From NCBI RefSeq assembly GCF_003574965.1, contig NZ_CP032317.1:3224001-3288000 (forward strand): DNA of 64,000 nucleotides. Reading direction: 5' to 3'. The notes under the pieces are model-generated. The model had not been told where the DNA came from, searched no databases, and saw only the letters and a program-made list of their open reading frames with translations. Each line of letters starts with the position of its first letter. The stretch's first letter is position 1. Source of the DNA: Hymenobacter oligotrophus (lineage in GTDB: Bacteria; Bacteroidota; Bacteroidia; Cytophagales; Hymenobacteraceae). Positions 633 through 24,502 of this stretch are shown piece after piece. The translations under genes and the position numbers were made by a program.

Positions 633-1487
633 ATGGAGATACTTGAAACCGCCGCCGCGTTGCAAGCCCTTACCGAAAAATGGCGCCGCGAAGGCCGCAG
701 CATCGGCTTAGTGCCCACTATGGGTGCCCTACACGAGGGTCATTTGCAACTGGTGCGCACCGCCGCCGCCCAAAACGACGAGGTGGTGGTAAGCATATTT
801 GTGAACCCCACGCAGTTCAACAACAGCGAAGATTTCAAATTATATCCCCGCGTACCCGATTCGGATGCGGAAATGCTGCGCGGAACCGGCTGCACTGTTT
901 TGTTTACGCCCACGGTGGAGGAGGTGTACCCGCGCCCCACGGTGCTGCAGTTTAATTTCGGGGCGCTGGAGAACGTGATGGAAGGCGCGCACCGGCCGGG
1001 CCACTTCAACGGGGTGGCTACTGTGGTGAGCAAGTTGTTTCACCTAGGGCGCCCGCACCGCGCGTACTTCGGGCAGAAGGATTGGCAACAAGTGGCCGTG
1101 GTGCGCCAGTTGGTGCAAGACTTAAGTTTTGACCTGGACTTGATTAGCTGCCCAACCATTCGCGAAACCGATGGCCTGGCTATGTCGTCGCGCAACCGGC
1201 GGCTTTCGCCCGAAGCGCGGGCCGTGGCCCCGCGCCTGTACGAGGCCTTGCAGCTGGCCGCTGCACAGCTCCAACACACCCGGCAGCCGGAGCTAGCGCA
1301 ACAAGCGGCGCTGGACTTCCTAGGTGCCTACCCGCAAATTGAAGTGGAGTACCTGCAAGTGGCCGACGCCCGTTTGCTGCAACCACTGCCGGCCGGTACG
1401 GAGCCTGGGCAAGAAGCCGTGATTTGCTTGGCGGCGTGGCTCGGTGGCGTGCGCCTGATTGACAACGTGGTACTCTTGCTTACCTAG
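633..1487 (+). CDS. panC: Pantothenate synthetase
   Basis: The 284-residue product condenses pantoate and beta-alanine with ATP to make pantothenate, the precursor of coenzyme A. The [10 protein letters not shown] segment (residues 28-37) is the HxGH-type nucleotide-binding signature, followed by [10 protein letters not shown], the GQKDWQQ loop and SSRNRRL, all typical of PanC. The open frame extends upstream to 579, but the family alignment begins at [13 protein letters not shown], so the ATG at 633 is preferred. The stop codon TAG (1485-1487) sits inside a CCTAGG palindrome. panD follows after 70 bp, so two consecutive steps of the pathway are adjacent; a -7 box before panD allows separate transcription. 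Confidence 0.96.
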
Positions 1488-1522
1488 GGCTGGCACCCGC
1501 GGCAGAGCGGGGCTTATTTGCG

Positions 1523-1530
1523 TATCTTTG
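1523..1530 (+). promoter_or_regulatory. Bacteroidota -7 box upstream of panD
   Basis: TATCTTTG matches the Bacteroidota primary sigma consensus TAnnTTTG exactly and lies 27 bp before the panD start codon. No clear -33 TTG was found at the usual distance. Confidence 0.5.
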
Positions 1531-1557
1531 CCGCCTTGTTACCCGCACCGCTTACCC

Positions 1558-1905
1558 ATGCACATTGAGGTTTTAAAATCCAAGATACACCGCGCCAAAG
1601 TCACCCAGGCCGAGCTCCACTACGTGGGCAGCATCACCATTGATGAGGACCTGCTCGACGCGGCCAACATGGTGGAAAACGAGAAGGTCACGGTCGTGAA
1701 CGTCAACAACGGCGAGCGGTTCGAAACCTATACCATCAAAGGCGAACGAGGCTCGGGCATGGTTTGCCTGAACGGCCCGGCAGCCCGCCGCGTCGCCGTT
1801 GGCGACATCGTTATCGTCTTCTCGTACTGCCTGATCGACTTTGCCGTAGCGCGCGAACACAAACCAACTTTGGTGTTCCCCGATCAGCACAACCGGTTGG
1901 TATAG
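1558..1905 (+). CDS. panD: Aspartate 1-decarboxylase, pyruvoyl-type proenzyme
   Basis: The 115-residue product decarboxylates L-aspartate to beta-alanine, which PanC (upstream) uses. The self-cleavage site Gly24-Ser25 is visible in HYVGSITID, where Ser25 becomes the pyruvoyl cofactor. The family core [19 protein letters not shown] and the glycine-rich [13 protein letters not shown] are intact, and the length is typical. The open frame continues upstream to 1459, but [16 protein letters not shown] is the standard PanD N-terminus. The protein should form a cytoplasmic tetramer. Confidence 0.97.
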
Positions 1906-1995
1906 CCACGTTGCTTCCGCCTCCGAAGCCAGTAGCCCCGCTGCTGGCTTTGTTTTTAGTGCTCAGCCCCGATTAGTATTACCCAATCAGTTAGA

Positions 1996-3057
1996 GTGAA
2001 ACGGGTACTCGATATTCTCAAATACGCTTTGCTGCTGGCTTTTTCGGCGGCACTGATGATTTACGCCATCCGGGGCCAGGACCTGAGCCGCATTGGGCAG
2101 TACATGCTCGAAGCCGACTACAGCTGGCTCGGCTTAACCATGGCGTTGTCGGTGATGGGCTACTTCAGCCGCAGCTACCGCTGGAAAATGCAACTGGATG
2201 CAGCCAATTACCGGGCGCCTTTCTGGCAAGTGTACCACGCCATGATGGTGGGATACTTGGCCAACATGGTACTGCCCCGCATGGGCGAGGTTATTCGGTG
2301 TTCGGTGTTGCGCCGCACGAGCGGCGTACCGGTACACGTGGCGGTGGGCACGGTGATTACCGAGCGCGTTATTGATGTGTTGGTGCTGTTTGGTTTGTTG
2401 GGCGCCACGTTGCTGCTCGATTTTCACAAGTTCTGGGCGTTTGTGGTAGACAAGCTCCTCGGCGGGCAAGCCCAGTACGATGCCCTGGCCCGCAACCGCA
2501 CGCCCCTGCTGTGGGCGGCCGTCATAGCCGGCGTGCTGCTGCTGATTGTGGCGTATGCTTTGTGGCGCAACCTCGAGCGCATCAACGAAAACCGCTTGTT
2601 CAACCGCATCATCAAGTTTGTGCGGGGGCTGCTCGAGGGCGTATTCAGCATCCGTAAGCTCGAGAACAAAGGCTTGTTCTTGCTGCACACGTTCTTTACC
2701 TGGCTGGTGTATTTCCTCATGGATTACTTAGCCTTCTTTGCCTTTCCTGAAACCTACAACCTAGGGGCCCGGGCGGGCCTGGCGGTGCTCACGTTTGGGG
2801 CCTTTGGCATGGCCGCTCCGGTATCCGGGGGCATTGGCACCTTTCACTTGTTGGTGCAAAGCATCCTCATCGTGTTCGGCGTTTCGCCCGAAGCCGGCAT
2901 TGCCTACGCGCTGGTGGTGCACGGCGCCCAAACTTTGCTGGTGGTGCTAATGGGCGGTATCAGCTTTGTAGCTAGCATGATGCAGGCCGGCCGAAGAGCC
3001 CGCGTGGGCACAGCCGAGCCTGCCGAACTGTCTGTAATCCATGCCGACAAAAGATAA
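1996..3057 (+). CDS. Flippase-like (lysylphosphatidylglycerol synthase TM-type) membrane protein
   Basis: The 353-residue product starts at a GTG and has about eight hydrophobic segments. The pattern matches the YbhN/UPF0104 or lysylphosphatidylglycerol synthase transmembrane family: a short N-terminal helix, the charged GYFSRSYRWKM loop, MVLPRMGEVIRCSVLRR, a second cluster near VITERVIDVLVL, and a C-terminal GGIGTFHLL segment. No aminoacyl-transfer domain is present, so it is only the membrane half. These proteins are proposed lipid or polyprenyl-linked substrate flippases in the inner membrane; the substrate cannot be read from the sequence. The stop overlaps the next gene start by 17 bp, indicating co-transcription with it. 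Confidence 0.85.
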   Translation: MKRVLDILKYALLLAFSAALMIYAIRGQDLSRIGQYMLEADYSWLGLTMALSVMGYFSRSYRWKMQLDAANYRAPFWQVYHAMMVGYLANMVLPRMGEVIRCSVLRRTSGVPVHVAVGTVITERVIDVLVLFGLLGATLLLDFHKFWAFVVDKLLGGQAQYDALARNRTPLLWAAVIAGVLLLIVAYALWRNLERINENRLFNRIIKFVRGLLEGVFSIRKLENKGLFLLHTFFTWLVYFLMDYLAFFAFPETYNLGARAGLAVLTFGAFGMAAPVSGGIGTFHLLVQSILIVFGVSPEAGIAYALVVHGAQTLLVVLMGGISFVASMMQAGRRARVGTAEPAELSVIHADKR

Positions 3058-3535
3058 AATCCTGACCCGCGAGCAGCTACCCGCCGTACTCGACACCTGG
3101 CGCCAGCAAGGCAAGCGCATCGTGTTCACCAACGGCTGCTTCGATCTGCTGCACCTAGGGCACGTCGATTACCTCGAAAAGGCCCGCGCCCTAGGCGACG
3201 CCATGGTGGTGGGCCTGAACACCGATGCCTCGGTAAGTTGCCTGAAACCCGGCCGCCCGTTGCAAGACGAAATGTCACGCGCGCGGGTGCTGGCCTCGCT
3301 TTTGTTTGTAGATGCGGTGGTGCTATTCGGCGAACCTACCCCGCTGGAGCTTATTCACCTCGTGCGGCCCGATGTGTTGGTGAAGGGCGACGACTACGCC
3401 CTAAGCGGAATCGTAGGCCACGAGTTTGTGTTAAGCAACGGAGGGCAGGTGCTCACCGTACCCTTGGTGCCCGGCTACAGCACTACCCGCATCGTGGAGC
3501 GCGTGCGCCGGGCCGAGGGCAGTACGGGCGCCTAA
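3041..3535 (+). CDS. rfaE2: D-glycero-beta-D-manno-heptose 1-phosphate adenylyltransferase
   Basis: The 164-residue cytidylyltransferase-fold protein carries FTNGCFDLLHLGH (residues 29-41) with the HxGH nucleotide-binding motif, VKGDDY, and the closing GYSTTRIVERV signature. It corresponds to the C-terminal adenylyltransferase half of E. coli HldE, here as a stand-alone enzyme. It would make ADP-heptose from heptose-1-phosphate and ATP for LPS core synthesis. The gene overlaps the preceding flippase-like gene by 17 bp, suggesting translational coupling. Both Leu-Gly pairs that follow a C-ending codon are encoded CTA-GGN, creating CCTAGG sites. The partner kinase (RfaE1) is not in the window. 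Confidence 0.9.
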   Translation: MPTKDKILTREQLPAVLDTWRQQGKRIVFTNGCFDLLHLGHVDYLEKARALGDAMVVGLNTDASVSCLKPGRPLQDEMSRARVLASLLFVDAVVLFGEPTPLELIHLVRPDVLVKGDDYALSGIVGHEFVLSNGGQVLTVPLVPGYSTTRIVERVRRAEGSTGA

Positions 3536-3614
3536 CCAGCTCGGAGCCAGTAGGGCTGCGAGTTGCCGAGCACCACGCTTCCAACATTCACACGGCTTTA
3601 CTTTTTTCCAGACG

Positions 3615-4307
3615 ATGAGTCCGAACGCTTTTTACATGCTGATGATCCTGCTCATGGTTGTGAGCATGGGCATCCAGTGGCGCCTCCGCAGCAAGTTCAC
3701 CAAGTACTCCCACATCGGGTTGCAGTCGGGCCTTTCGGGCAAGCAAATAGCCGAGCTGATGCTGGCCGACAACAACATCCACGACGTGCGCGTGATTTCG
3801 ACCTCGGGTCGCCTCACCGACCACTACAACCCCGCCGACAAAACCGTCAACCTTAGCGAAGAGGTGTACGACGGCCGCTCGGCCGCTGCCGCCGCCGTAG
3901 CTGCCCACGAGTGCGGCCACGCCGTGCAGCACGCTACGGCCTACAGCATGCTGCAATTCCGCTCGGCCATGGTGCCGGCCCTTAGCGCTGTGTCGCGCTT
4001 CATGCCGTTCATCCTGATCGGGGGCATGCTGATGATGCAAAGCACACCTATTCCGTTGGGCATTGGCATTGCGCTTTTTGCCCTCACCACGCTGTTCAGC
4101 TTTATCACCTTGCCCGTTGAGTTCGACGCCTCGCGCCGTGCCCTCGTTTGGATTGATAAGCGTGGCATTGTAACCGCGCAAGAACACGCACTGGCCAAAG
4201 ATGCCTTGTGGTGGGCCGCCATGACGTACGTGGTAGCGGCGATTAGCTCGCTGGCTACCTTGCTGTACTACGTGAGTATTTTCATGGGCGGCAGCCGCCG
4301 CAACTAA
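3615..4307 (+). CDS. Neutral zinc metallopeptidase, YugP family
   Basis: The 230-residue membrane protein has an N-terminal helix (about residues 5-20), the zinc-binding motif HECGH (residues 98-102, HExxH type) and two to three C-terminal hydrophobic segments. It matches the YugP/Zn_peptidase_2 family, an inner-membrane metalloprotease family whose physiological substrates are unknown. The segment VEFDASRRAL after the second helix is characteristic of this family. The next gene is separated by a strong terminator, so this looks like the end of the panC-rfaE2 group. Function beyond probable peptidase activity is inference. Confidence 0.88.
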   Translation: MSPNAFYMLMILLMVVSMGIQWRLRSKFTKYSHIGLQSGLSGKQIAELMLADNNIHDVRVISTSGRLTDHYNPADKTVNLSEEVYDGRSAAAAAVAAHECGHAVQHATAYSMLQFRSAMVPALSAVSRFMPFILIGGMLMMQSTPIPLGIGIALFALTTLFSFITLPVEFDASRRALVWIDKRGIVTAQEHALAKDALWWAAMTYVVAAISSLATLLYYVSIFMGGSRRN

Positions 4308-4338
4308 CCCCCGCTGCTGTAGCTATTGCAGCTTGCAC

Positions 4339-4366
4339 AAGCGCCCGCACCTGCGGGCGCTTTGTT
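4339..4366 (+). terminator. Rho-independent terminator after the metallopeptidase gene
   Basis: An 11-12 bp stem AAGCGCCCGC/GCGGGCGCTT with a 4-nt loop is followed by TTTGTTTT, 32 bp after the stop codon. Confidence 0.8.
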
Positions 4367-4482
4367 TTGCTCCCTAGGTGGTAACAACCAAAACAGCAGT
4401 TAAACCTAACGGGCGTTAGGCATGTTAGGCAAGCAGCCTATAACTTAGCGTGCGCATCGGTGCGTTTAATGCTGGTTATAGG

Positions 4483-4512
4483 TTGATAACCACTGACCAG
4501 CTTGTAATTTCG
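4483..4512 (+). promoter_or_regulatory. Promoter of the acyl-CoA dehydrogenase gene
   Basis: TTG at 4483-4485 is separated by 19 bp from TAATTTCG at 4505-4512, close to the Bacteroidota TTTG-N19-TAnnTTTG consensus (one mismatch in the -7 box). The start codon lies 52 bp downstream. Confidence 0.5.
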
Positions 4513-4564
4513 CGGCGCCGTACCGGGCTCCGGTAGGTGCCAAGCCTCTATTCCCATTCCCACA

Positions 4565-5704
4565 ATGAACTTTCAGCTCACCGAAGAACAACTCGCCGTG
4601 CAAGCCGCGGCCCGCGAATTTGCCCAGAACGAACTGTGGGCCGGCGTAATCGAGCGCGACGAACACCAGAAATTCCCCGCCGAGCAAATCAAGAAGATGG
4701 GCGAGCTGGGCTTTATGGGCATGATGGTGAGCCCCGAGTACGGCGGCGGCGGCATGGATACCGTATCGTACGTGTTGGCCATGGAAGAAATTTCCAAGGT
4801 CGATGCTTCGTGCTCGGTTATCATGTCGGTGAACAACTCGCTGGTGTGCTGGGGCCTCGAGAAGTACGGCACCGAAGAGCAAAAGCAGAAATACCTGACT
4901 AAGCTGGCCACCGGCGAAATCATCGGCGCGTTCTGCCTCTCGGAGCCCGAAGCCGGCTCCGATGCCACCATGCAGCGCACCACCGCCGTTGACATGGGCG
5001 ACCATTACCTGCTGAACGGCACCAAAAACTGGATTACCAACGGCTCGTCGGCTTCGGTGTACCTGGTAATTGCTCAAACCAACCCCGAGCTCAAGCACCG
5101 CGGCATCAACGCCCTGATTGTGGAGCGCGACACCCCCGGGTTTGTGGTAGGCACCAAGGAAAACAAGCTGGGCATCCGCGGCTCCGACACGCACTCGCTT
5201 ATGTTCACCGACGTGAAAGTGCCCAAGGAAAACCGCATCGGCGAAGATGGCTTCGGCTTTAAGTTTGCCATGCAGGTGCTGGCCGGTGGCCGCATTGGCA
5301 TCGCCGCGCAAGCCCTAGGCATTGCTTCGGGTGCTTACGAGCTGGCCGTGAAATATTCGAAAGAGCGCAAGGCTTTCGGCGTGCCGATTTCGCAGCACCA
5401 AGCCATCCAGTTTAAGCTGGCCGATATGGCGACCAACATCGACGCTGCCCGTTTGCTTTGCTTGCAGGCCGCACACGATAAGGATGCCCACCTCGACTAC
5501 GCCAAGTCGGGCGCCATGGCCAAGCTCTTCGCCTCGAAGGTTGCCATGGACACGGCGGTGGAAGCCGTACAGGTGCACGGCGGCTACGGATTCGTGAAAG
5601 AATTCCACGTGGAGCGCCTAATGCGCGACGCCAAAATCACCCAGATTTACGAGGGAACTTCTGAGATTCAGAAAATTGTAATCTCGCGGGAAATTCTGAA
5701 GTAG
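4565..5704 (+). CDS. Acyl-CoA dehydrogenase (short-chain/butyryl-CoA type)
   Basis: The 379-residue flavoprotein catalyses alpha,beta-desaturation of acyl-CoA with electron transfer to ETF. The family order is intact: N-terminal helical domain, middle beta domain with FCLSEPEAGSDA and WITNG, and C-terminal domain with RKAFG, QVHGGYG and YEGTSEIQ. Glu363 in that last motif is the expected catalytic base at the position used by short-chain and butyryl-CoA dehydrogenases. The gene is monocistronic: its own promoter candidate is upstream and a terminator follows. It may work with the thiolase at 17.8 kb and the Fe-S protein pair at 10.5-12.9 kb, but this linkage is inferred only from pathway logic. 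Confidence 0.94.
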   Translation: MNFQLTEEQLAVQAAAREFAQNELWAGVIERDEHQKFPAEQIKKMGELGFMGMMVSPEYGGGGMDTVSYVLAMEEISKVDASCSVIMSVNNSLVCWGLEKYGTEEQKQKYLTKLATGEIIGAFCLSEPEAGSDATMQRTTAVDMGDHYLLNGTKNWITNGSSASVYLVIAQTNPELKHRGINALIVERDTPGFVVGTKENKLGIRGSDTHSLMFTDVKVPKENRIGEDGFGFKFAMQVLAGGRIGIAAQALGIASGAYELAVKYSKERKAFGVPISQHQAIQFKLADMATNIDAARLLCLQAAHDKDAHLDYAKSGAMAKLFASKVAMDTAVEAVQVHGGYGFVKEFHVERLMRDAKITQIYEGTSEIQKIVISREILK

Positions 5705-5740
5705 AATCGGAATTGCCTTAAAGTCAGAATCCTTGCACAA

Positions 5741-5776
5741 AACCCAGCCAAATTTCTGGCTGGGTTTTCGTTTTTG
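5741..5776 (+). terminator. Terminator after acyl-CoA dehydrogenase
   Basis: Stem AACCCAGCCA/TGGCTGGGTT with loop AATTTC, followed by TTCGTTTTTG, 37 bp after the stop codon. Confidence 0.85.
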
Positions 5777-5863
5777 TGAATTTTTATATCTTATTTTGCA
5801 TTGTCGAAACAGCGGCGTCGCCGTAGTCCGCTGGTACTCAGCCAACCACTCCCGCGTCCGAAT

Positions 5864-6787
5864 ATGGAAGATTATAATAAAGTCATAGAATCGCTCGGTG
5901 TGCGCTACATCAAGGCCAAGAACTTGGTGTTGCAGCAGCCCTTTACCGTGCGCAACTCCTACGATGTAGGCAACAACCTTATTCTGTTGCACAAGGGGCG
6001 TATTTCGTTTGGCGACGAGGACACGGTGGTAGAAGAAGGCGATATGCTCTTCATCCCGGGGGGCCGGGCTACCCGCGTGAGCTACGGCGAAGCGGGCGGC
6101 AAAACCATCACCAACGACGACCTGATCAGCAACAAGGACAAGTTCTTCCACTCCAACGTTGACCTCGATCTAATTTCCGACGCCGAGGAAAGCCACTCGT
6201 TTGTGTCGTTCGAGGCCAAAGTGTTCGATTCGGTGAACTTCTTCGCGTCGCTCGACGTGCCGGCGTTCCTGATCAGCGGCAATTCCAAGCTAGCCAACCT
6301 GGTCATCAAGGTGGTGGAGGAGAGCTTGCAGGAGCTGCCGGGCCGCGAGCGTCTGATTTCGATTTACACCGAGAACATCGTTGTCGAAATCATTCGCTAC
6401 ATCCTGAAGAACAAGATGTTTGTGGAGCAATTGGCCACTAACAGCACGTACTTCAAAGACCCGCGCCTGATCGACTTGTTCAATTACATCAAGGAGAACC
6501 TAGGTGGCGACCTATCCAACAAGGTGCTGTCGGGCGTGGCCAACGTGTCCGAAGACTACGTGGGCCAGTACTTCAAGATGCTGACTGGCATTAACCCGCA
6601 AGACTACATTGAATACCAGCGCATGGAGCGCGCCGTGTTCCTGCTCCGTACCACCAAAAAGAGCATCCGCGACATTGGCAAGGAAGTGGGCTACAAAGAC
6701 ACCGCGTACTTCTGCCGCCGCTTTAAAATGATGTTCGGCATTCCGGCCGGTAAGATGCGCCGCCGCGAGTCGGCCATGAACATTTAA
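5864..6787 (+). CDS. AraC-family transcriptional regulator
   Basis: The 307-residue product has an N-terminal cupin-like sensor region (about residues 1-150, with LLHKGRISFGDED and GDMLFIPGG) and a C-terminal AraC-type double helix-turn-helix (about residues 205-300), including LSGVANVSEDYVGQYFKML and IRDIGKEVGYKDTAYFCRRFK. The frame is open from a TTG at 5801, but the arginine-rich extension is atypical and the alignment-like start MEDYNKVIES at ATG 5864 is preferred. The ligand and targets are unknown. The gene converges with the GGGP synthase gene and ends exactly at a 72-bp palindrome that should terminate both. Confidence 0.9.
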   Translation: MEDYNKVIESLGVRYIKAKNLVLQQPFTVRNSYDVGNNLILLHKGRISFGDEDTVVEEGDMLFIPGGRATRVSYGEAGGKTITNDDLISNKDKFFHSNVDLDLISDAEESHSFVSFEAKVFDSVNFFASLDVPAFLISGNSKLANLVIKVVEESLQELPGRERLISIYTENIVVEIIRYILKNKMFVEQLATNSTYFKDPRLIDLFNYIKENLGGDLSNKVLSGVANVSEDYVGQYFKMLTGINPQDYIEYQRMERAVFLLRTTKKSIRDIGKEVGYKDTAYFCRRFKMMFGIPAGKMRRRESAMNI

Positions 6788-6858
6788 CCTAGGGCCGCAA
6801 GCAAAAGCGCCCGCCGCCCCACGTGGGGCGGCGGGCGCTTTTGCTTGCGGCCCTAGGT
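6787..6858. terminator. 72-bp perfect palindrome, bidirectional terminator between convergent genes
   Basis: The two 36-bp arms are exact reverse complements with no spacer, centred on CACGTG. Each arm runs from an outer CCTAGG through GCCGCAAGCAAAAGCGCC to CGCCGCCCCAC. It starts at the last base of the AraC stop codon and ends 3 bp before the stop of the opposing gene. The AAAAGCGCC/GGCGCTTTT part yields a GC stem followed by U-rich tract in either direction. Confidence 0.85.
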
Positions 6859-6861
6859 GGT

Positions 6862-7635
6862 TTAGTTAAGCGTGGCGTCGAGTACCGCGTTGTAGGAGTG
6901 CACCACGCGCGACACTTCGCCCAAGAACTCCGGGTCGCGCTCAATCTGGTTGCCGATGACAATGACATCGGCGCCGGCAGCTAAGGCGGTATGGGCTTTC
7001 TCGGCTGTGCTGATACCGCCACCCACCACAATGGGCAACGCCACGGCCTGGCGCACAGCCCGAATCATGGCCGGCGACACGGGGTGCAAGGCCCCGCTGC
7101 CGCCATCGAGGTAAATGAGACCTAGGCCCAATTGCTCGCCCGCCATGGCCGTGCAGGCCGCAATGGTGGGCTTGTCGTGGGGCAGGGGCGTGGTGCCGCT
7201 CATGTAGCTGGCCGTGGTTTGCCGGCCCGAATCGACGAGCATGTAGCCGGTGGGTAAAATCTCGAGCTGGCTGGCGCGCAGCAGCGGCGCGGCTACTACG
7301 TGCTGGCCGATCAGGAAATCGGGGTTGCGGCCCGAAATCAGCGAGAGTAGCAGAATGGCATCGGCTTGCGCATCGATGTGCAGGCTGTTGCTCGGGAACA
7401 GCACCACGGGCACCTGCGAGTGCGCCTTCAGCAAGCGAATAAGGGCAGCCTGGTGCTGCGAAGTCACCAGGCTGCCCCCTACGAAGAAGTAATCAACGGG
7501 ATGCGTGTTGCTTAGCGCCAGAATACGCCGCGTGCCGGCCTCGTCGAGGTCGTCGGGGTCGAGCAGCACGGCCAGAGATTTCTGGCCGCGGGAGCAGCGG
7601 TGGCGCAGGGCATCATGCAGTGGGGTCAGGCGCAT
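6862..7635 (-). CDS. Geranylgeranylglyceryl/heptaprenylglyceryl phosphate synthase family protein
   Basis: The 257-residue TIM-barrel protein shows LLDPDD near the N-terminus, FVGGSLVT, PVVLFPSN, GYMLVDSGRQT, LIYLDGGSGA, PIVVGGGIST and DVIVIGNQIE. These are the beta-strand ends and phosphate-binding loops of the PcrB/GGGPS family, which links sn-glycerol-1-phosphate to a polyprenyl diphosphate. Family members are known in Bacteroidota, but their lipid product in the cell is not settled. The frame is open to 7701, yet MRLTPLHDALRHR at 7635 is the better start. It overlaps the end of the upstream gene by 23 bp, so the two are probably co-transcribed. Confidence 0.85.
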   Translation of the reverse strand: MRLTPLHDALRHRCSRGQKSLAVLLDPDDLDEAGTRRILALSNTHPVDYFFVGGSLVTSQHQAALIRLLKAHSQVPVVLFPSNSLHIDAQADAILLLSLISGRNPDFLIGQHVVAAPLLRASQLEILPTGYMLVDSGRQTTASYMSGTTPLPHDKPTIAACTAMAGEQLGLGLIYLDGGSGALHPVSPAMIRAVRQAVALPIVVGGGISTAEKAHTALAAGADVIVIGNQIERDPEFLGEVSRVVHSYNAVLDATLN

Positions 7636-8350
7636 GCGCGTCGTCGTGGTGGATGACAAAGTCGATGTCCTTGGTTTCGGGCTCAGTGGCCGAAGCTGCA
7701 AGGTCCGAATTTTTGTTCATTTCCATCCACTCGTTCACCTTGCGCGTGAGCATTGCGATGAGCACGCCCGAAACCTGCCCGATCAGCATTTTGCCTGTGT
7801 CGGATTCGGCCAGGGCCCGCAGCGTATCCAATACCATCGAACCTTGCTCGGCGGGCTTGGGTTGCGCGCGGTAGCCGCCGCGGGGCGCCTGGTACGCCGG
7901 CGCTGCCACGGCCGGCAGGCCTGCCGCGTAGGGCTCCGTGGTATCGAAAGCCGGGAAAGGGTCGGCATCGGAGGCAGCGGTGGCGTGGTACACCGGCGGG
8001 GCCAATTGGGCGCGGGGGCTCAGGCCCGACGAGCCAAAGTGGTAGTCGTCGGAGTGGGCCACGAGTTGCGCTTTGCGCCGGCCGCCCTTAACTTTTTTGG
8101 CCTTTTGCTTTTTCCGACGGCGCTGCGAGGCGTGGTCCTCGTCGTCTTCGTCGTCGCGGCCACCTAGCACTTTGCTCACGAGCCAGACGCCGCCCAGCAG
8201 GGCAGCCCCGATGGCTACGTACTTACCCACTTGGGTAGTGCGTTCCTTGATATGGTCCACGTCGCCGAGAAGGGCACGTTCGTACTCCTGCTTCTGGCGC
8301 TCCAGAAATTCACGTTCGTCGTCGAACAGCGGGTTGTGCAATTCGCTCAT
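7613..8350 (-). CDS. Hypothetical protein with one transmembrane segment
   Basis: The 245-residue product is not assigned to a named family. It has an acidic/charged N-terminus (MSELHNPLFDDEREFLERQ), one hydrophobic helix (about residues 43-64), an acidic DDEDDED run next to a lysine/arginine-rich stretch (about residues 65-95), a low-complexity Pro/Ala/Tyr middle and a second amphipathic or weakly hydrophobic helix near MLIGQVSGVLIAML (about residues 188-202). It sits between the holin-X-like gene (21 bp upstream) and the GGGP synthase gene (overlapping), so the three form a probable operon. A structural or envelope role is a guess from the membrane context. Confidence 0.72.
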   Translation of the reverse strand: MSELHNPLFDDEREFLERQKQEYERALLGDVDHIKERTTQVGKYVAIGAALLGGVWLVSKVLGGRDDEDDEDHASQRRRKKQKAKKVKGGRRKAQLVAHSDDYHFGSSGLSPRAQLAPPVYHATAASDADPFPAFDTTEPYAAGLPAVAAPAYQAPRGGYRAQPKPAEQGSMVLDTLRALAESDTGKMLIGQVSGVLIAMLTRKVNEWMEMNKNSDLAASATEPETKDIDFVIHHDDAHAPDPTA

Positions 8351-8371
8351 CGCGCTAAAACGGTTGGGGGG

Positions 8372-8740
8372 TTATTGGCGCTTGTCCGATTTGTAAATGG
8401 TATTGCTCAGCATTTTGTCGGCTAGCCCTTGGTAAAGTTTCTTGCCTACGCCCACCAGAAATACGATGAGCAGCAGCAAGTAAAAGCCTGCCACAATGCC
8501 AAAGCCCCAAAACGGGCTATCCAGCGCATCGTTGAGAGCCAGGCCCGCGAAGATGCTCAGGAATACCAGAAAGAGTAGCCCGAGCAGCCCGAGCGTTACG
8601 CCCTGGGCCGTGCCGACAAATGCCGTCTTGACTTTTTCTTGCACCTCCAGGCGCACCAAATCAATGCGCGTGTCGATGTAGCCCATTAGGTTGCCCATCA
8701 GCGAATCGTTGCGGGGCGTTTTGTCGTCGTCGGTAGCCAT
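8372..8740 (-). CDS. Phage holin family / holin-X-like membrane protein
   Basis: The 122-residue product has a polar N-terminus, the amphipathic helix YIDTRIDLVRLEVQEK and two transmembrane segments (about residues 45-68 and 78-97) linked by a short loop. This layout matches the Phage_holin_3_6/holin-X family, commonly found as a chromosomal gene in Bacteroidota without any prophage. No phage genes are nearby, so lysis function is unlikely to be its role here. It is the first gene of a probable three-gene minus-strand operon with the hypothetical membrane protein and the GGGP synthase-like gene. Confidence 0.78.
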   Translation of the reverse strand: MATDDDKTPRNDSLMGNLMGYIDTRIDLVRLEVQEKVKTAFVGTAQGVTLGLLGLLFLVFLSIFAGLALNDALDSPFWGFGIVAGFYLLLLIVFLVGVGKKLYQGLADKMLSNTIYKSDKRQ

Positions 8741-8916
8741 GCAGCGGCGAGGTTTGTTTAGGTGAGTGGTTTGGATCGAGAAGACACGGGAAAGTAGAAA
8801 GCCCCGCCGAACTCCAACCCCTAGGTCGTCGTTCTGCAGGTCGAGGGTATCTACGGAAAAGGCCGTTGCGCGTCTGAACTTCCCTATATTTTTACCACAA
8901 CCCTTCGTCTGCCATC

Positions 8917-10056
8917 GTGAGTCAAACCCTCTACCAGGTGCTGGGCCTTGCGCCCACGGCCACGCTGGCCGACATTAAGCAGGCCTACAAGCAGCTGGCT
9001 TTGCGCTACCACCCCGACCGCAACGGGGGCAGCAAAGTGCACGAAGAGCACTTCAAGGCCGTGGTGGCCGCCTACAAAGTGCTGTCGGATCAGGCCCGCC
9101 GCGCCAGCTACGACCACCAACTGCACTTGGCCAAGTTGCGCGCCGACGAAGCCCGCCGCGCGCAGGCCTTTCGGCCGCAGGCCCAGCACGTGTACGGCGT
9201 GCCCATGCCGCCGCCCCAGCCACTGCGCACGCGCCGGCCGGCATCGTCGGCCGAGCGGCACTACGTACGCCGCCAAAAAGCCCGCTTCAACCGCAAGGAT
9301 TATATCTTGGTGATTGGCTTGCTGCTCGGGGTTGTGCTGTTTGCCCTAGGTGTAAAATTCGTGATGGAACGCGTGGCAGCCAGCAGCAACTACCAGCAGG
9401 GCCTGAAGGCCTATGCCCAGCGGCGCTGGGGCACCGCACACAGCTTCCTAAGCGAAACCCTGGAAGCGCAGCCAAACCACGTTGGGGCCCTGCGTCGGCG
9501 GGGCGAAATTGAGCAATTGGTGTACCGCAACTATGCTGCCGCCAACGCCAACTACAGAGCCGCCTTGCGCCAAGCCGACAACCGCTTGCTGGTGGCCGAA
9601 CTGTTGTACCGCGTGGGGCAATGCGAAACCGAGTTGGGCAAGCACCGGGCGGCGGTGCGCAGTTTCAGCCGCGCCTTGGCCCTCGACACGGCCCTCACCG
9701 ATGCGTGGCTGGCCCGCGGCGAGGTGTCGTTGTTTGAGCAGCGCCGGTTTACGGCCGCCGCCCGCGACCTAAGCATTGGCCTGCGGCAACGCGCCGGCAA
9801 CCACTCGCCGTCGGTGAAGTGGCTTACCTACCGCGGCTTGGCCTACTTTAAGCTAGGCGACTACCCCGCTGCCCTGGCCGATTATCAGCAAGTGCTGCTG
9901 CTGAAACCCAACAACGGGCAGATCTATTTCTTGCTGGGGCGGGTGGCGCAAAAGCAAAACCGCAAAGCTGCGGCCTGCGAGTTTTTCCGGCGGGGCGCGC
10001 ACCTAGGGTACCTGCCCGCCGTGGAGGCCACGCGCCGCAACGCTTGCAGCCCCTAA
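8917..10056 (+). CDS. J-domain protein with transmembrane segment and TPR repeats
   Basis: The 379-residue product starts at GTG and opens with a J-domain (residues 1-68) with the HPD motif at 32-34, needed to stimulate the Hsp70 DnaK ATPase. A basic linker leads to one transmembrane helix (about residues 128-148), and the C-terminal 210 residues form about five TPR-like repeats. This places the J-domain in the cytoplasm and the TPR part on the other side of the inner membrane or the reverse; the positive-inside rule (basic linker RRQKARFNRKD) favours a cytoplasmic J-domain. It is a membrane-anchored co-chaperone of unknown client. A weak -7 box TATATTTT lies at 8885-8892. It is transcribed alone. 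Confidence 0.85.
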   Translation: MSQTLYQVLGLAPTATLADIKQAYKQLALRYHPDRNGGSKVHEEHFKAVVAAYKVLSDQARRASYDHQLHLAKLRADEARRAQAFRPQAQHVYGVPMPPPQPLRTRRPASSAERHYVRRQKARFNRKDYILVIGLLLGVVLFALGVKFVMERVAASSNYQQGLKAYAQRRWGTAHSFLSETLEAQPNHVGALRRRGEIEQLVYRNYAAANANYRAALRQADNRLLVAELLYRVGQCETELGKHRAAVRSFSRALALDTALTDAWLARGEVSLFEQRRFTAAARDLSIGLRQRAGNHSPSVKWLTYRGLAYFKLGDYPAALADYQQVLLLKPNNGQIYFLLGRVAQKQNRKAAACEFFRRGAHLGYLPAVEATRRNACSP

Positions 10057-10233
10057 GCATAAGCAGCCCAACCAAGCAGCGGCGTACGCGCAATCAGCAA
10101 CAGCATAAGCAAAACATACCGGCAACTCGAACAGCGCTGGGCAATACCTGTTTTGTATGCATGGTGCTGAAGTACAGCCAAGCGCCGGCTGTTTATCCGG
10201 AGAAGCCGGTGCGGAAAGCGAAATGCCCGTAAC

Positions 10234-10262
10234 GAAAAAAGCCTCCGATTTCTCGGAGGCTT
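10234..10262 (-). terminator. Terminator of tRNA-Phe
   Basis: On the minus strand the stem AGCCTCCGA/TCGGAGGCT with a short loop is followed by TTTTTT, 7 bp beyond the 3' end of the tRNA. The preceding stretch 10057-10233 shows no gene. Confidence 0.85.
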
Positions 10263-10268
10263 TGGAAG

Positions 10269-10341
10269 TGGTGATGGACGGAATCGAACCGCCGACACAA
10301 GGATTTTCAGTCCTTTGCTCTACCAGCTGAGCTACATCACC
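10269..10341 (-). tRNA. tRNA-Phe (anticodon GAA)
   Basis: A 73-nt cloverleaf on the minus strand: acceptor GGTGATG/CATCACC, D-arm GCTCAGCTGGTAGAGC, anticodon stem-loop with CTGAAAA (anticodon GAA), and T-arm with GGTTCGATTCC. The discriminator is A and CCA is not encoded. It stands alone, followed by its own terminator. Confidence 0.97.
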
Positions 10342-10436
10342 AGGTGCCAGTATGTGGCTGAATGGAGCGCAAAACTAGGAACCAGATTTTACAATGCAAT
10401 ATTTCTGCTGAAAAAAATCTTTGCACCGAAACGGAT

Positions 10437-10461
10437 TACTTTTGCTCACGTAGCAAAAGTA
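10437..10461 (+). promoter_or_regulatory. Inverted repeat overlapping a -7 box before the Fe-S membrane protein gene
   Basis: Two 10-bp arms TACTTTTGCT and AGCAAAAGTA flank CACGT. The left arm contains TACTTTTG (10437-10444), an exact TAnnTTTG match, so the repeat would cover the promoter or the start of the transcript. The GTG start codon of the Fe-S gene is 45 bp downstream. Confidence 0.45.
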
Positions 10462-10506
10462 TTAGGCATGCCTACTATCTTGCCGACAACGAAATCTCGC
10501 TGAGTT

Positions 10507-11862
10507 GTGATTCAACAAATTCTTTTTCTGCTCGTGGCAGCGCTAGGGATAGGGCTGTTTGTGTGGCAGGTGCGAAAGATTCGCGCCAACATCTTGAAGG
10601 GTAAGGACCGCGTGATGGGCGGCTCCGTGAGCGAGCGAATCAACAAGACCCTGCTCGTCGCGTTTGGCCAGCAGAAAATGTTCAAGCGCATTACGCCGGC
10701 CTTGTTGCACTTGGTGGTGTACGTGGGCTTTTTGGTCATCAACGTTGAAGTCATCGAAATCATGATCGACGGCATCTTCGGCACGCACCGTGCGCTAAGC
10801 TTTATGGGCCCGGTGTACGATGTGCTGATGGCTACCAACGAAATCTTAGGTGCCTTGGTGATTGTGGCGGTGGTGGCCTTGTGGTGGCGCCGCAACGTGC
10901 AGAAGGTACACCGCCTGAGCGCCGGCGTGGAAATGCGCGCCTGGCCTCGCCTCGATGGCAACATCATTCTGTACGTGGAGATTGTGCTGATGACGGCCTT
11001 GTTCACGATGAACACCGCCGACCTAAAGCTGCACCAACTGGAGGGCGTTGACTTGCCCGGCTCGTTCCCGATCAGCTCGCTGTTGGTGGGCCTGTTCCCG
11101 GAAAACGTGACCGCGCTGCACGCGCTGGAGCGCGTGGGCTGGTGGCTGCACATTTTGGGCATTCTGGCCTTCCTGAACTACCTGCCCTCGTCGAAGCACT
11201 TCCACATCATCATGGCCTTCCCGAACGTGTACTACACGCGTTTGGTACCGCAAGGCCAATTCTCGAACGTGGACAGCATTACGCACGAGGTAAAGGCCAT
11301 GATGGACCCGAGCTACCAAGTGCCCGCCGGGCCTGTGGATGCCGACGGCAACCCCGTGGTGCAGCGCTTCGGCGCCAAGGATGCCGACGACCTCTCGTGG
11401 CTGAACCTGCTGAACGCCTACTCCTGCACCGAGTGCGGCCGCTGCACCTCGGTGTGCCCCGCCAACATTACGGGCAAGCTCCTCTCGCCGCGCAAAATCA
11501 TCATGGACACGCGCGACCGGATTGAGGAAAAGTACGAGTCGCCGCTGATTTTCCGGCCCAACCAGTACAACGGCGAAATCGGGGCCGAAAGCGAAGACGG
11601 CTCGTTGGTGCGTGGCAAAGTAACCCCCGAAGAGCTATGGGCTTGCACCACCTGCAACGCCTGCGTGGAAGCTTGCCCCGTGAACATTAACCCGCTCGAC
11701 AGCATTGTGGAGATGCGCCGCTACCTGGTGCTCGAGGAGTCGGCGGCACCGCACTCGCTAAACGTGATGTTTAGCAACATTGAAAACAACGGCGCGCCCT
11801 GGGCTTTCTCGCCTTCCGACCGCTTTAACTGGGCCGAAGAACTGTACGTGGCCGAGAAATAA
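10507..11862 (+). CDS. Membrane-bound 4Fe-4S protein, heterodisulfide reductase-related
   Basis: The 451-residue product starts at GTG and has five to six transmembrane helices in its first 240 residues (nitrate-reductase-gamma-like, with potential haem-ligand histidines), then a dicluster ferredoxin-like domain. The cluster ligands are C307, C310, C313, C317 (CTECGRCTSVCP) and C380, C383, C386, C390 (CTTCNACVEACP). Such proteins pass electrons between the quinone pool and a soluble CCG-domain partner. The partner gene follows 105 bp downstream in the same direction. A link to ETF or acyl-CoA oxidation is often proposed for this pair and is inference here. Confidence 0.87.
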   Translation: MIQQILFLLVAALGIGLFVWQVRKIRANILKGKDRVMGGSVSERINKTLLVAFGQQKMFKRITPALLHLVVYVGFLVINVEVIEIMIDGIFGTHRALSFMGPVYDVLMATNEILGALVIVAVVALWWRRNVQKVHRLSAGVEMRAWPRLDGNIILYVEIVLMTALFTMNTADLKLHQLEGVDLPGSFPISSLLVGLFPENVTALHALERVGWWLHILGILAFLNYLPSSKHFHIIMAFPNVYYTRLVPQGQFSNVDSITHEVKAMMDPSYQVPAGPVDADGNPVVQRFGAKDADDLSWLNLLNAYSCTECGRCTSVCPANITGKLLSPRKIIMDTRDRIEEKYESPLIFRPNQYNGEIGAESEDGSLVRGKVTPEELWACTTCNACVEACPVNINPLDSIVEMRRYLVLEESAAPHSLNVMFSNIENNGAPWAFSPSDRFNWAEELYVAEK

Positions 11863-11867
11863 AAGGA

Positions 11868-11962
11868 GTTGTCAGTTGCTGGTTATCAGTTGTCAGAAAC
11901 AGACAATGGTGATTGGCGCTGACGCATTCACTGACAACTAACAACTGACAACTGTCAACTCA
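11868..11962. repeat. Word-repeat inverted spacer A
   Basis: The spacer between the two Fe-S genes carries TTGTCAGTTG-type words on its left half (GTTGTCAGTTG, AGTTGTCAG) and their reverse complements on its right half (CTGACAACT, CAACTGACAAC, TGTCAAC). It can fold into an imperfect long hairpin. See the related spacers at 19.6, 23.0, 29.7 and 31.4 kb. Confidence 0.7.
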
Positions 11963-11967
11963 ATACA

Positions 11968-12864
11968 ATGGCTGAGCAAGTAGCCAAGCGTCAAGTAAAC
12001 GTACCCCTGATGGCCGACCTCGCCGCCCGCGGCGAGCAGCCCGAAGTGTTGTTTTGGGTGGGCTGCGCCGGCGCCTTCGACGACCGGTATAAGCGCGTAA
12101 CCCGTGCCTTTGTGCGCATTCTGGAGCACGTAGGCGTGAAGTATGCCGTGTTAGGCATGGAAGAAAGCTGCACCGGCGACCCCGCCAAGCGCGCCGGCAA
12201 CGAGTTCTTGTTTCAGATGCAGGCCATGCAAAATATCACTACGTTGGATGGCTACGCTATCAAGACGATTGTGACGGCCTGTCCGCACTGCTTCAATACC
12301 ATCAAGAACGAGTACCCCGCCCTAGGCGGCAACTACGAGGTGATTCACCACAGCACTTTCCTGCAGCAGCTCATCAACGAGGGCCGCGTGAAAGTGCAGG
12401 GCGGTGAGTCGTACAAGGGCCGCCGCATTACCTTCCACGACTCCTGCTACCTGGGCCGCGCCAACGACATTTACGAAGCGCCGCGCGACGTGCTGGCCGC
12501 TCTCGATGCCGACTTGGTGGAAATGAAGCGCAGCAAAGCCAACGGCCTGTGCTGCGGCGCTGGCGGTGCCCAAATGTGGAAAGAGCCCGAGCCCGGCAAA
12601 AAAGACATCAACATTGAGCGAACTGAAGAAGCCCTGGCCACGCTCGACGGCAACGCGGCCGCGCTCGAAAACCTGTACGGCGTGGAAAGCGGCAACGCCG
12701 GCGCCACGCCCGCCAAGGGCAACGGCAACGGCATCATTGCGGTGAGCTGCCCCTTCTGCATGACGATGATGAGCGACGGCGTGAAAAACAAAGAGCGCGA
12801 AAGCTCGGTGCAGGTGTTCGACCTGGCCGAACTCGTGGCCTCGGCCGAAGGCCTGAACGCCTAA
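11968..12864 (+). CDS. CCG-domain Fe-S protein, heterodisulfide reductase subunit B-like
   Basis: The 298-residue soluble protein has two cysteine-rich CCG-type domains: the first with VGCAG (about residue 32), EESCTGD and CPHCFNTIKNEYP, the second with FHDSCYLGR, GLCCGAGGAQMW and SCPFCMTMM. These bind a non-cubane 4Fe-4S cluster in HdrB and relatives. It should be the peripheral partner of the membrane Fe-S protein encoded upstream. A low-complexity insert rich in Gly, Asn and Ala (about residues 232-250) precedes the last cysteine motif. The redox substrate cannot be told from sequence. Confidence 0.87.
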   Translation: MAEQVAKRQVNVPLMADLAARGEQPEVLFWVGCAGAFDDRYKRVTRAFVRILEHVGVKYAVLGMEESCTGDPAKRAGNEFLFQMQAMQNITTLDGYAIKTIVTACPHCFNTIKNEYPALGGNYEVIHHSTFLQQLINEGRVKVQGGESYKGRRITFHDSCYLGRANDIYEAPRDVLAALDADLVEMKRSKANGLCCGAGGAQMWKEPEPGKKDINIERTEEALATLDGNAAALENLYGVESGNAGATPAKGNGNGIIAVSCPFCMTMMSDGVKNKERESSVQVFDLAELVASAEGLNA

Positions 12865-12896
12865 CCGCCGCAGCCGCAAAACCTGCCTAACTTGAG

Positions 12897-12938
12897 GCCC
12901 GCGCCGCCGGAACTTTGCTCCGGGGCGCGGGCTTTTGT
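12897..12938 (+). terminator. Terminator after the Fe-S protein pair
   Basis: GCCCGCGCCGCCGG pairs imperfectly with CCGGGGCGCGGGC around a 9-nt loop, followed by TTTTGTTTG. Confidence 0.75.
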
Positions 12939-13015
12939 TTGGGTAAGCCGCAGGCACCTAGGGCGGGCACAAGCCGCCCGCCAAGGCCCGGCGGTACTGA
13001 TCTTTCCTGTCTGCT

Positions 13016-13510
13016 ATGTTCGTTCCGTTTCACGAACTTCCCCCGTCGGCGCGCATCTGGATTTACCAGGCCAGCCGCCCCCTTACCGAGGCCGAACTAG
13101 CGGCCGTGCAGCCCGCGCTGCGGCAATTTTCGGAAGCCTGGACAAGCCACGGCCGCGAGCTGCGTGCCTCGGCCGAATTCAGGCACCGCCAGTTTTTGGT
13201 AATCGGCCTCGACGAAGCCGTGGCCGATGCCAGCGGCTGCTCGATCGATTCCTCGGTACGCTTTGTGCGCGAGCTTGAAGCCGCCTTGGGCCTACAGTTG
13301 CTGGCCAAAGAACAACTGGCTTTCCTAGGTCCGGAGGGGCAAGTGCAGCTCTTCAACCGCCGCGACCTGAAGCAGGCCGTGGCCGATGGCGCGCTGCAGC
13401 CGAATTCTTTGTACTTCGACAACACCATAAGCCAACGCGGTGCGTTAGAGGCAGGGTGGCCCGCACCCGCTTCGGCTACTTGGCTGGCGCGGTATTTCGG
13501 CGCGGCCTAG
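13016..13510 (+). CDS. Conserved hypothetical protein of Bacteroidota
   Basis: The 164-residue soluble product has the recognisable centre ASGCSIDSSVRFVRELE (about residues 72-90) and a C-terminal VQLFNRRDLKQAVADG. Similar Bacteroidota proteins are often labelled ABC transporter ATPase, but no Walker A, Walker B or signature motif is present, so that name is not supported. There is no signal peptide or membrane segment. It is followed 129 bp later by the PorE-like gene in the same orientation, a pairing that may be conserved. Function unknown. Confidence 0.75.
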   Translation: MFVPFHELPPSARIWIYQASRPLTEAELAAVQPALRQFSEAWTSHGRELRASAEFRHRQFLVIGLDEAVADASGCSIDSSVRFVRELEAALGLQLLAKEQLAFLGPEGQVQLFNRRDLKQAVADGALQPNSLYFDNTISQRGALEAGWPAPASATWLARYFGAA

Positions 13511-13639
13511 AAAAAGCTGCACCGCGGCCGATTGCTTCGTAAACTTAGTATTATTGTTAGCCCAAGTTGGGTTGAAAGCGGCCCGGACCTAGGGCCGCAG
13601 CCACCCCGGCGGTACCCCACCTTTCCCTTCCGACTTCCC

Positions 13640-15628
13640 ATGAGGAACCTGTTAGTTGTCTGTGCTGCGGCCGGATCGGTTGCCCTGCTTGGCGGTTGCG
13701 CCGCCTCGGGCAACATGAGCAAGGCCGAAAAACGTTTTTCGCGCGGCGAGTACGAAACCGCCATTCAGCTGTACAAAGCGGATGTAGCGCGCGGCAAAGA
13801 CGTAGCCACGGCCAACCACAAAATAGCGGAAGCCTACCGCCTCTCGAACCGCATTGAGCTGGCCGAAGATTATTACAAAGCCGCCCTCGACGGCGGGCTG
13901 AAAAACGCCGACGCGCCGTTTTACTACGCCTTGGCCATGAAGGCCAACGGCAAGTACGATGACGCCGCCGCGCGCTTTAAGCAGTACGCCGAAAGCGGCA
14001 CCAACCGCAACCTGATACCGCGCGCCGAGTTGGAAGTGCAAAACGCGCAGGCTGTATCGCAGTTGGTGGCCATGCGCAGCAACAGCGAGGTGCTGCCGCT
14101 TGAGCAGATCAACACGCCGTCGGCCGAGTTCAGCGCCACCATCAAGCCCGATACCAAAGAGCTGATCTTTGCCTCGGGCCGCGACGGCAAAAAGTACCTA
14201 GGCAACGGCGAAGGATTCAACGACCTGTACGCCATCAAGTTTGATAACGTGGAGAAGATGACGGGCGGCACCGTAGTGCCGTTCGAAACGGTAGCCAAAG
14301 GCGCCGCAGTGGCCGGTACCGATGCGGCCAAGGACACGGGCAAGCCGCTGTTCAACAAGCCCGGCACGCACGAGGCCTCGCCCACGTTCTCGCCCGATGG
14401 CAAGATGATGATCTTCGCCCGCTCAAACGACGGCTCGAAGAAAGGCTACCTGAGCGTGGATTTGTACGCCTCGTACTTCCGCGGCGGGGCCTGGACGGAA
14501 CCAGAAATCATCCGGGGCATCAACAACAGCCGCGCCGACGACTTTGCGCCGGTGCTTTCGCCCGATGGCCGTACGCTGTACTTTGCCTCGTCGCGCCCCG
14601 GCGGGCAAGGCGGCAACGACTTATACAAATCGACCCTAGGTGAAAACAACCGCTGGGCAACGCCCGAAAACCTAGGCGAACAAATCAACACGCCCGGCAA
14701 CGAGAACTTCCCGGCCGTGGCGCCCGATGGCACGCTGTATTTCTCTTCCGACGGGCACCCGGGCCTGGGCAAGCTCGATTTGTTTCGGGTGGAAAAGAAC
14801 AGCAAGGTGACGAACATGGGCGCGCCCATCAACAGCACCGGCGACGACTTTGCGCCCTACCTCACGGGCAAAGACGTGGGCGTGTTTGCCTCGAACCGCG
14901 CCGGCGGCAAAGGCTCCGACGACCTGTACTTCTTCCGGAAGAAGCCGCTGAAGCTGGTTGCTTTTTACGTGGAGGGCAAGGTGCAGGAGCTTGATACCAA
15001 AACCGGTGCTACTGCTCCGCTGGCCAACGAAACGGTTACCATCAGCGGTAGCAGGGGCCAAAAGCAAGAGGTGCAGGTTGGGGCCGATGGCACCTTCAAG
15101 ACCAAGCTCGATACCTCGGCCGCCTACACGCTGTTTGCCGACCGTCCGGGTTATTTCTCGGCGCGCCAGAGCATAACCACCGTGGGCAAGGTGCCGCCGC
15201 AAGACCAGCTGCCCAACGAGATGAACGACATCAGCATTCCGGTGACGCTCACGCTCAGCAAGATTGTGGTGAACAAAGCCATTGTGGTCGAGAACATTTT
15301 CTACGACTACAACAAGGCCAACATCCGCCCCGATGCCGCCGTGGAGCTGGATAAGCTTGTGCAAACCCTGCAGGACAACCCCGACATTACCATCGAGCTC
15401 AGTTCGCACACCGACGCCCGCGGCAAGGACGCCTTTAACCAGGATCTGTCGCAGCGCCGCGCGCAATCGGCTGTCGACTACATCATCTCGAAAGGCGTTG
15501 ATAAGTCGCGCATTACGGCCCGTGGCTACGGCGAAACCCGTCCGGTTATCCGCACGGCCAAAACCGAGCCCGAGCACCAGCGCAACCGCCGCACCGAGTT
15601 CAAAGTCACCAAAATCAACGGGCGCTAA
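13640..15628 (+). CDS. PorE-like OmpA-family lipoprotein (TPR, PD40 propeller, OmpA_C)
   Basis: The 662-residue product has a lipoprotein signal with lipobox LLGGC (Cys20), then TPR-like repeats (about residues 28-135), a PD40/TolB-like beta-propeller (about 145-440; repeated SPDGRTLYFAS-type blades), a carboxypeptidase-regulatory-like beta domain (about 445-540) and a C-terminal OmpA peptidoglycan-binding domain with NPDITIELSSHTDARG and NQDLSQRRAQSAVDY. This domain order is that of PorE, the periplasmic type IX secretion protein described in Porphyromonas, which anchors the system to peptidoglycan. Cytophagales encode several such paralogues, so assignment to the secretion system is likely but not certain. 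The start was set at the ATG giving the lipoprotein signal. Confidence 0.88.
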   Translation: MRNLLVVCAAAGSVALLGGCAASGNMSKAEKRFSRGEYETAIQLYKADVARGKDVATANHKIAEAYRLSNRIELAEDYYKAALDGGLKNADAPFYYALAMKANGKYDDAAARFKQYAESGTNRNLIPRAELEVQNAQAVSQLVAMRSNSEVLPLEQINTPSAEFSATIKPDTKELIFASGRDGKKYLGNGEGFNDLYAIKFDNVEKMTGGTVVPFETVAKGAAVAGTDAAKDTGKPLFNKPGTHEASPTFSPDGKMMIFARSNDGSKKGYLSVDLYASYFRGGAWTEPEIIRGINNSRADDFAPVLSPDGRTLYFASSRPGGQGGNDLYKSTLGENNRWATPENLGEQINTPGNENFPAVAPDGTLYFSSDGHPGLGKLDLFRVEKNSKVTNMGAPINSTGDDFAPYLTGKDVGVFASNRAGGKGSDDLYFFRKKPLKLVAFYVEGKVQELDTKTGATAPLANETVTISGSRGQKQEVQVGADGTFKTKLDTSAAYTLFADRPGYFSARQSITTVGKVPPQDQLPNEMNDISIPVTLTLSKIVVNKAIVVENIFYDYNKANIRPDAAVELDKLVQTLQDNPDITIELSSHTDARGKDAFNQDLSQRRAQSAVDYIISKGVDKSRITARGYGETRPVIRTAKTEPEHQRNRRTEFKVTKINGR

Positions 15629-15653
15629 CCCGCTGGTTTAGCTCAACACAAAA

Positions 15654-15688
15654 AAGCCCCCGCGCCCACCGGCCGGGGGCTTTTTTTG
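15654..15688 (+). terminator. Terminator after the PorE-like gene
   Basis: AAAGCCCCCG pairs with CGGGGGCTTT across a short GC-rich loop, followed by TTTTTTTGCG. Confidence 0.85.
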
Positions 15689-24500: not shown

Positions 24501-24502
24501 CG

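Follow-up and report, generated by a model that had tools for sequence, protein, structure and literature searches.

The function of the highly iterated palindromes (HIPs) of cyanobacteria is an open question, and HIPs are so widespread in that phylum that few clean comparisons can be made. In all the cyanobacterial genomes with HIPs that have been studied, a methyltransferase was present whose predicted target includes part of the palindrome (PMC4390886). For the known DNA uptake words, dialects have been described (PMC3630211), and even spacing has been reported by some authors (discussed in PMC1939737). Among the Bacteroidota, Riemerella columbina prefers its own DNA in transformation (PMC7965970), and transformation of R. 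anatipestifer depends on several proteins that have no relation to known competence machinery (PMC8459023). In the literature, we found no report of a Hymenobacter with CCTAGG or a DNA uptake sequence, nor of an iterated palindrome in Bacteroidetes; subscription journals and preprints may hold such reports.

In this study, we analysed a 64,000-nucleotide stretch of the chromosome of Hymenobacter oligotrophus (hereafter the window; the genome is G000). The window contains 90 copies of CCTAGG, compared with 12.2 ± 3.5 in dinucleotide shuffles, none of which gave more than 21, and CCTAGG is by far its most over-represented palindromic hexamer (7.5-fold under a first-order model; the next reaches 2.7-fold). 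The original prediction concerned codons. It held that Leu-Gly pairs following a codon that ends in C are written CTA-GGN, creating CCTAGG, although CTA is a rare leucine codon; that CTG-GGC is used after a codon ending in G; and it suggested selection or mutation bias for the hexamer itself as the cause. All nine Leu-Gly sites on which it was based carry CCTAGG, in frame as xxC-CTA-GGx, and the genes had been correctly named (rfaE domain II, tRNA pseudouridine synthase, Glu/Leu/Phe/Val dehydrogenase, isocitrate/isopropylmalate dehydrogenase and, for the CTG-GGC pairs, acyl-CoA dehydrogenase). These sites are listed here with one at a stop codon and one in intergenic DNA:

1043..63079, no strand assigned: CCTAGG sites of the window, first to last (90 sites, 12.2 expected)
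3154..3159, plus strand: CCTAGG in rfaE2, CAC-CTA-GGG (HLG), full word ACCTAGGG
3190..3195, plus strand: CCTAGG in rfaE2, GCC-CTA-GGC (ALG)
19794..19799, plus strand: CCTAGG in truA, AGC-CTA-GGT (SLG), other-strand word ACCTAGGC
20100..20105, plus strand: CCTAGG in truA, CTC-CTA-GGT (LLG)
28873..28878, plus strand: CCTAGG in the leucine dehydrogenase family gene, AAC-CTA-GGG (NLG)
29362..29367, plus strand: CCTAGG in the leucine dehydrogenase family gene, GCC-CTA-GGT (ALG)
32275..32280, plus strand: CCTAGG in isocitrate/isopropylmalate dehydrogenase, GGC-CTA-GGT (GLG)
32416..32421, plus strand: CCTAGG in isocitrate/isopropylmalate dehydrogenase, CAC-CTA-GGC (HLG)
32497..32502, plus strand: CCTAGG in isocitrate/isopropylmalate dehydrogenase, GAC-CTA-GGC (DLG)
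1483..1488, plus strand: CCTAGG containing the TAG stop of the pantoate ligase gene (633-1487), the word being recruited at the stop
6788..6793, plus strand: intergenic CCTAGG, directly 3' of the gene ending at 6787

In the acyl-CoA dehydrogenase gene (4565-5704), the two pairs that follow a codon ending in G are indeed written with CTG-GGC (ELG, GAG-CTG-GGC; KLG, AAG-CTG-GGC), and the third Leu-Gly pair, ALG, is GCC-CTA-GGC. Codons were counted over 384 kb in genes predicted with a simple codon-model caller written for this analysis; overall, our statistics cover 784 kb of the 4.10-Mb chromosome, with our own gene calls, and pieces of 20-80 kb sampled from other genomes. In the 384 kb, CTA was enriched only in the context C-Leu-GG (331/524, 63%), compared with 126/2760 (4.6%) in C-Leu-H and 28/447 (6.3%) in notC-Leu-GG (Fisher P < 1e-80 for both contrasts). 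CTA use at other leucine codons is clearly far from equal to this; at 5-6%, the codon is as rare elsewhere as had been claimed. Other frames were recruited as well: in the same 384 kb, 25 of the 128 TAG stops were written CC-TAG-G, and AGG, as in Pro-Arg CCT-AGG, encoded 28 of 298 arginines after proline versus 62 of 6,890 elsewhere. Among 357 in-gene sites, 331 were read in frame as Leu-Gly and the other 26 as Pro-Arg. For the Leu-Gly dipeptide, the observed-to-expected ratio was 1.08 in G000 and 1.00 in the window; word-poor genomes gave 0.90-1.03. Selection for Leu-Gly itself was rejected, given that the dipeptide is at most slightly enriched (1.08), and the word therefore builds up where the protein permits. 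The unusual leucine codons arise as a by-product of a short DNA word that is iterated over the whole chromosome and that CTA-GGN completes; this is not a codon phenomenon.

Across the whole G000 genome (4.19 Mb), CCTAGG was found 5,678 times (1.36/kb) and the control word GGATCC 67 times. Intergenic density was 2.94/kb (175 sites, 17 expected) versus 1.10/kb in coding DNA, and convergent intergenic regions were the densest and divergent ones the sparsest (3.9 versus 2.1/kb). When 21 regions round the chromosome were compared, the density was even (1.1-1.9/kb), and there was no strand bias (489 plus versus 500 minus). It is the DNA word that is acted on, and neither the protein nor the codon. 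As a separate observation, GGATCC was strongly depleted in the G000 chromosome sample C1:3044001-3428000 (3 versus 46 expected), as were GGGATC and GCGATC, and across the Hymenobacteraceae genomes GGATCC counts lay anywhere between 0 and more than 600; this depletion and variation in counts suggest restriction-driven avoidance.

The consensus of the word in G000 is ACCTAGG(G/C), or ACCTAGGS; when intergenic sites are aligned, the pattern extends to GCACCTAGGSC, in which the outer positions are weak. An A before the hexamer or a T after it is strongly preferred, not both, as the combination A..T was seen 10 times versus 77 expected from the margins in 334 intergenic sites. In genes, the Gly codon that followed C-CTA was GGT in 170 of 204 cases that had no A upstream versus 10 of 127 that had one. 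Where ACCTAGGG can form on either strand, CTA was used in 154 of 177 Leu-Gly opportunities (87%), compared with about 22% of opportunities with neither flank. The preferred full word of G000 is asymmetric and non-palindromic, built round a hexamer core that is a perfect palindrome; in G109 and G190 (ACCTAGGT) and in G058 (CCCTAGGG), the full word is itself palindromic. Most single-mismatch forms of CCTAGG were depleted rather than enriched.

Moreover, the sites avoid each other. CTA use rose with the distance to the nearest other site, from 34% within 50 bp to 56% at 100-300 bp and about 73% at more than 300 bp. Over 1,078 synonymous opportunities, the repulsion test gave z = 7.5 (0 of 5,000 permutations), and seven control words showed no repulsion (z from -1.3 to 0.5). 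In bins of 0.5-4 kb, site counts were less variable than in all 1,000 simulations, which preserved opportunities and intergenic space, and the pair correlation was 0.64-0.84 up to 500 bp. In small samples of six other word-rich genomes, the repulsion was weaker (combined z = 2.8), and in G005 it was absent. Spacing in G000 is more even than chance, with sites avoiding each other over about 300-500 bp, a length scale that constrains any mechanism. The word accumulates through synonymous and intergenic changes, and it does so in a density-dependent manner, the use of a site falling when there is a second one within about 300 bp.

Within the genus, three of eight genomes are rich (5,325-6,212 CCTAGG) and five are poor (123-249). 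Nine of the 204 genomes of the family Hymenobacteraceae exceed 5,000 copies, namely the three of the genus and six more with 5,500-8,900; four further genomes among the 204 are intermediate (1,200-2,400), and no genome is above about 800 among roughly 380 from elsewhere in the class. The rich genomes carry different versions of the word, ACCTAGGT with ACCTAGCT in G109, G190 and G115, CCCTAGGG in G058 and a mixture in G158; a TGGCCTA[GC] version occurs in G121, G203 and, weakly, G196. G121 and G203 contain 2,000-2,200 CCTAGG, and the different word that they iterate, TGGCCTA followed by G or C, overlaps CCTAG and looks like another version of the same system. No other iterated word was seen in the samples read from word-poor genomes. 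Between rich sister genomes, 69-73% of the window's sites are exactly conserved versus 48-52% of all hexamers; the same places in poor relatives hold CCTGGG, GCTGGG, CCCAGG, CCTCGG and others, and 19 of 32 polarised sites need at least two substitutions, of several types. The word is patchy in its distribution, being limited to part of the Hymenobacteraceae, and its versions differ from species to species. The claim about the hexamer is thus refined, in that the word is ACCTAGGS rather than the hexamer alone, and is genome-wide and lineage-specific. Since counts of a single word differ by more than 20-fold between members of the same genus, gene-presence and knock-out comparisons become possible.

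Some DNA in the rich genomes is almost free of the word. Three small contigs of G000, which from their size are probably plasmids, hold 3 sites in 71 kb, where the chromosomal rate predicts about 101; the word is also scarce on small contigs of G005, G158 and G058, and those of G190 are variable. In the sister genome G005, only one site lies in a chromosomal stretch of 15 kb that carries genes for a large terminase and a portal protein and is therefore a prophage; the prophage at L146:8841-19494 (G005:C1, about 1,068,800-1,079,500) also encodes a virion protein and is almost free of CCTAGG. Such word-poor contigs and chromosomal stretches may have arrived too recently, or they may escape the process. 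In G173 (C1:25,000-45,000, L155-L158), a 20-kb stretch of lower GC with zero CCTAGG contains two radical-SAM genes, an AAA protein and regulators, and is likely a recent acquisition. The two longest word gaps in G000 were considered as foreign DNA, a notion that was dropped since their genes, for a SIS/glutamine-amidotransferase, a DUF4270 protein, an SMC-like ATPase and a resolvase-type HTH protein, are not clearly mobile. In these genomes, scarcity of the word seems to be a marker of plasmids, prophages and recently acquired islands.

Profile searches found no PF00145, PF01555 or PF02086 protein in G000. The PF02384 protein of G000 has no counterpart in G007, whose sole match is to PF01555; PF07669 gave none in G007 and in G000 only a sub-threshold match, of a kind also seen in poor genomes. 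A PF02086 protein was absent from every rich genome. None of the five methyltransferase families covered (PF00145, PF01555, PF02086, PF02384 and PF07669) is common to G000 and G007, the two rich genomes best tested in this respect. TIGR01420 (PilT) remained below cut-off in all 29 genomes searched. Vsr was absent from G000, G007 and G058, and Vsr-type repair was for that reason rejected as the cause. In the window, the gene at 52801-57390 (plus strand) encodes a 1,529-aa protein with weak similarity, well below curated cut-offs, to the anti-phage helicase-like ProA and Hhe, and is conserved at 43-84% identity in scattered phyla; it was discarded as a reader gene because it is also present in word-poor Hymenobacter.

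We infer that a putative protein reads the word as duplex DNA, and that what matters is the presence of at least one copy per few hundred bp. Such a reader of the cell's own DNA would be at work in some members of the family but not in their close relatives. The leading candidates for the role of the word are a self-DNA or uptake word and a chromosome-architecture site. We favour the first, with a probability of roughly 0.4, in the form of a self-DNA mark for uptake and recombination that would work as the uptake sequences of Neisseria and the Pasteurellaceae do. An uptake word is favoured by the differences between versions, the form of a core with weak flanks, the lack of orientation, the saturation with distance, and the existence of Bacteroidota, such as Riemerella columbina, with a preference for their own DNA in transformation. 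ACCTAGGS would then be read during DNA uptake and homologous recombination; DNA carrying it would be preferentially imported and recombined, and the word would spread by biased replacement until it saturated at about one per effective fragment length. A change of receptor would bring about a change of word version. Because PilT was not found, the uptake machine would need to be pilus-independent, of the kind proposed for Riemerella. Several findings count against an uptake word: the same lack of PilT in 29 genomes; a core that is palindromic, in a word short for this role; the depletion of most single-mismatch forms, though biased uptake should carry near-matches too; and the repulsion, which is weaker in other rich genomes and absent in the G005 sample. 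The fuller proposal makes the word a self-DNA signal, with species dialects, for a sequence-specific uptake or recombination system that works without pili and has been repeatedly gained and lost in one family; it is possible but doubtful. If true, this would be the first uptake-type word of the Bacteroidota, and would connect HIP-type palindromes with uptake-type words.

The word might instead anchor an abundant nucleoid- or condensin-type protein that binds ACCTAGGS every few hundred bp, with selection keeping a minimum density. The even density (1.1-1.9/kb in 21 regions), the lack of orientation, the repulsion over hundreds of bp and small contigs almost without the word would all suit such an architectural site, but the word is dispensable for five species of the genus and for almost the whole family, versions differ between species, a word-free prophage is tolerated in the G005 chromosome, and a candidate protein was not found; we regard this role as possible, if somewhat unlikely. 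CCTAGG also resembles HIP1 and the alternate HIPs, with which it shares its density (about 1.4/kb) and the type of its GC-rich palindromic core. For the HIPs, Elhai's model invokes an orphan methyltransferase of matching specificity and methylation-directed mismatch repair, saturating at about one site per kb; such a repair-range model predicts saturation too (PMC4390886). However, G000 and G007 share none of the five methyltransferase families, PF02086 occurs in no rich genome, and the preferred G000 word is not palindromic. This mechanism is therefore rather unlikely here, and the leading HIP model is challenged by the finding that the two genomes have no methyltransferase of the main families in common.

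A sequence-specific mutation or repair bias, turning near-matches into a word without function, finds a basis in the single central transition by which many sites differ from a relative, and in the near-matches of CCTAGG, which became CCTAGG in G000 in 9.8% of cases versus a median of 1.5% for other palindromes. Nevertheless, local mutation bias cannot produce repulsion over hundreds of bp, and more than one substitution, of several types, is required to explain 19 of the 32 polarised sites; the low density on co-resident small contigs (unless these are recent) and the absence of Vsr from G000, G007 and G058 also speak against it, and simple mutation bias is distinctly unlikely. Of the two forces named in the original prediction, selection or biased fixation fits, whereas simple mutation bias does not, given the repulsion and the multi-substitution origins; that some force acts on the DNA word is strongly supported by intergenic enrichment, an enrichment of Leu-Gly that is slight at most, recruitment at TAG stops and conservation. 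A translational or codon-pair effect on Leu-Gly would explain only the codon pattern as first noticed, and is hardly conceivable: density is highest in intergenic DNA (175 sites for 17 expected), Pro-Arg CCT-AGG and TAG stops are recruited as well, and the intergenic enrichment and stop-codon recruitment refute it.

When compared with described systems, CCTAGG at 1.36/kb falls in the HIP class of short palindromes many-fold over-represented at roughly 0.5-2.5 per kb. Like the cyanobacterial HIPs (HIP1, GCGATCGC, and the alternate HIPs; Elhai 2015, PMC4390886), it has a short GC-rich palindromic core, occurs about once per kb chromosome-wide, and has close relatives that carry different words or none. 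It differs in phylum and word, in the asymmetry of the full G000 word (ACCTAGGS), in the site repulsion measured here, and in that no methyltransferase of five families is common to two word-rich genomes. With the DUS and USS of Neisseriaceae and Pasteurellaceae (PMC3630211, PMC1939737) it shares about one copy per kb, a core with weaker flanks, a lack of orientation bias, species dialects and even spacing, claimed for those words by some authors and found for CCTAGG. In contrast to them, the word is shorter, its core is palindromic, its single-mismatch forms are mostly depleted, and the type IV pilus retraction ATPase (PilT) was not found in the 29 genomes searched. Chi and KOPS-like words are likewise short, asymmetric and over-represented in chromosomes, but they are strand-biased relative to replication, whereas the CCTAGG word has no strand bias along replichores, and its orientation balance of 489 plus to 500 minus rules out a word of that kind. 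Taken together, the best reading is that of an iterated word, probably held at a set density by a putative reader of duplex DNA, and most like a self-DNA or uptake signal.
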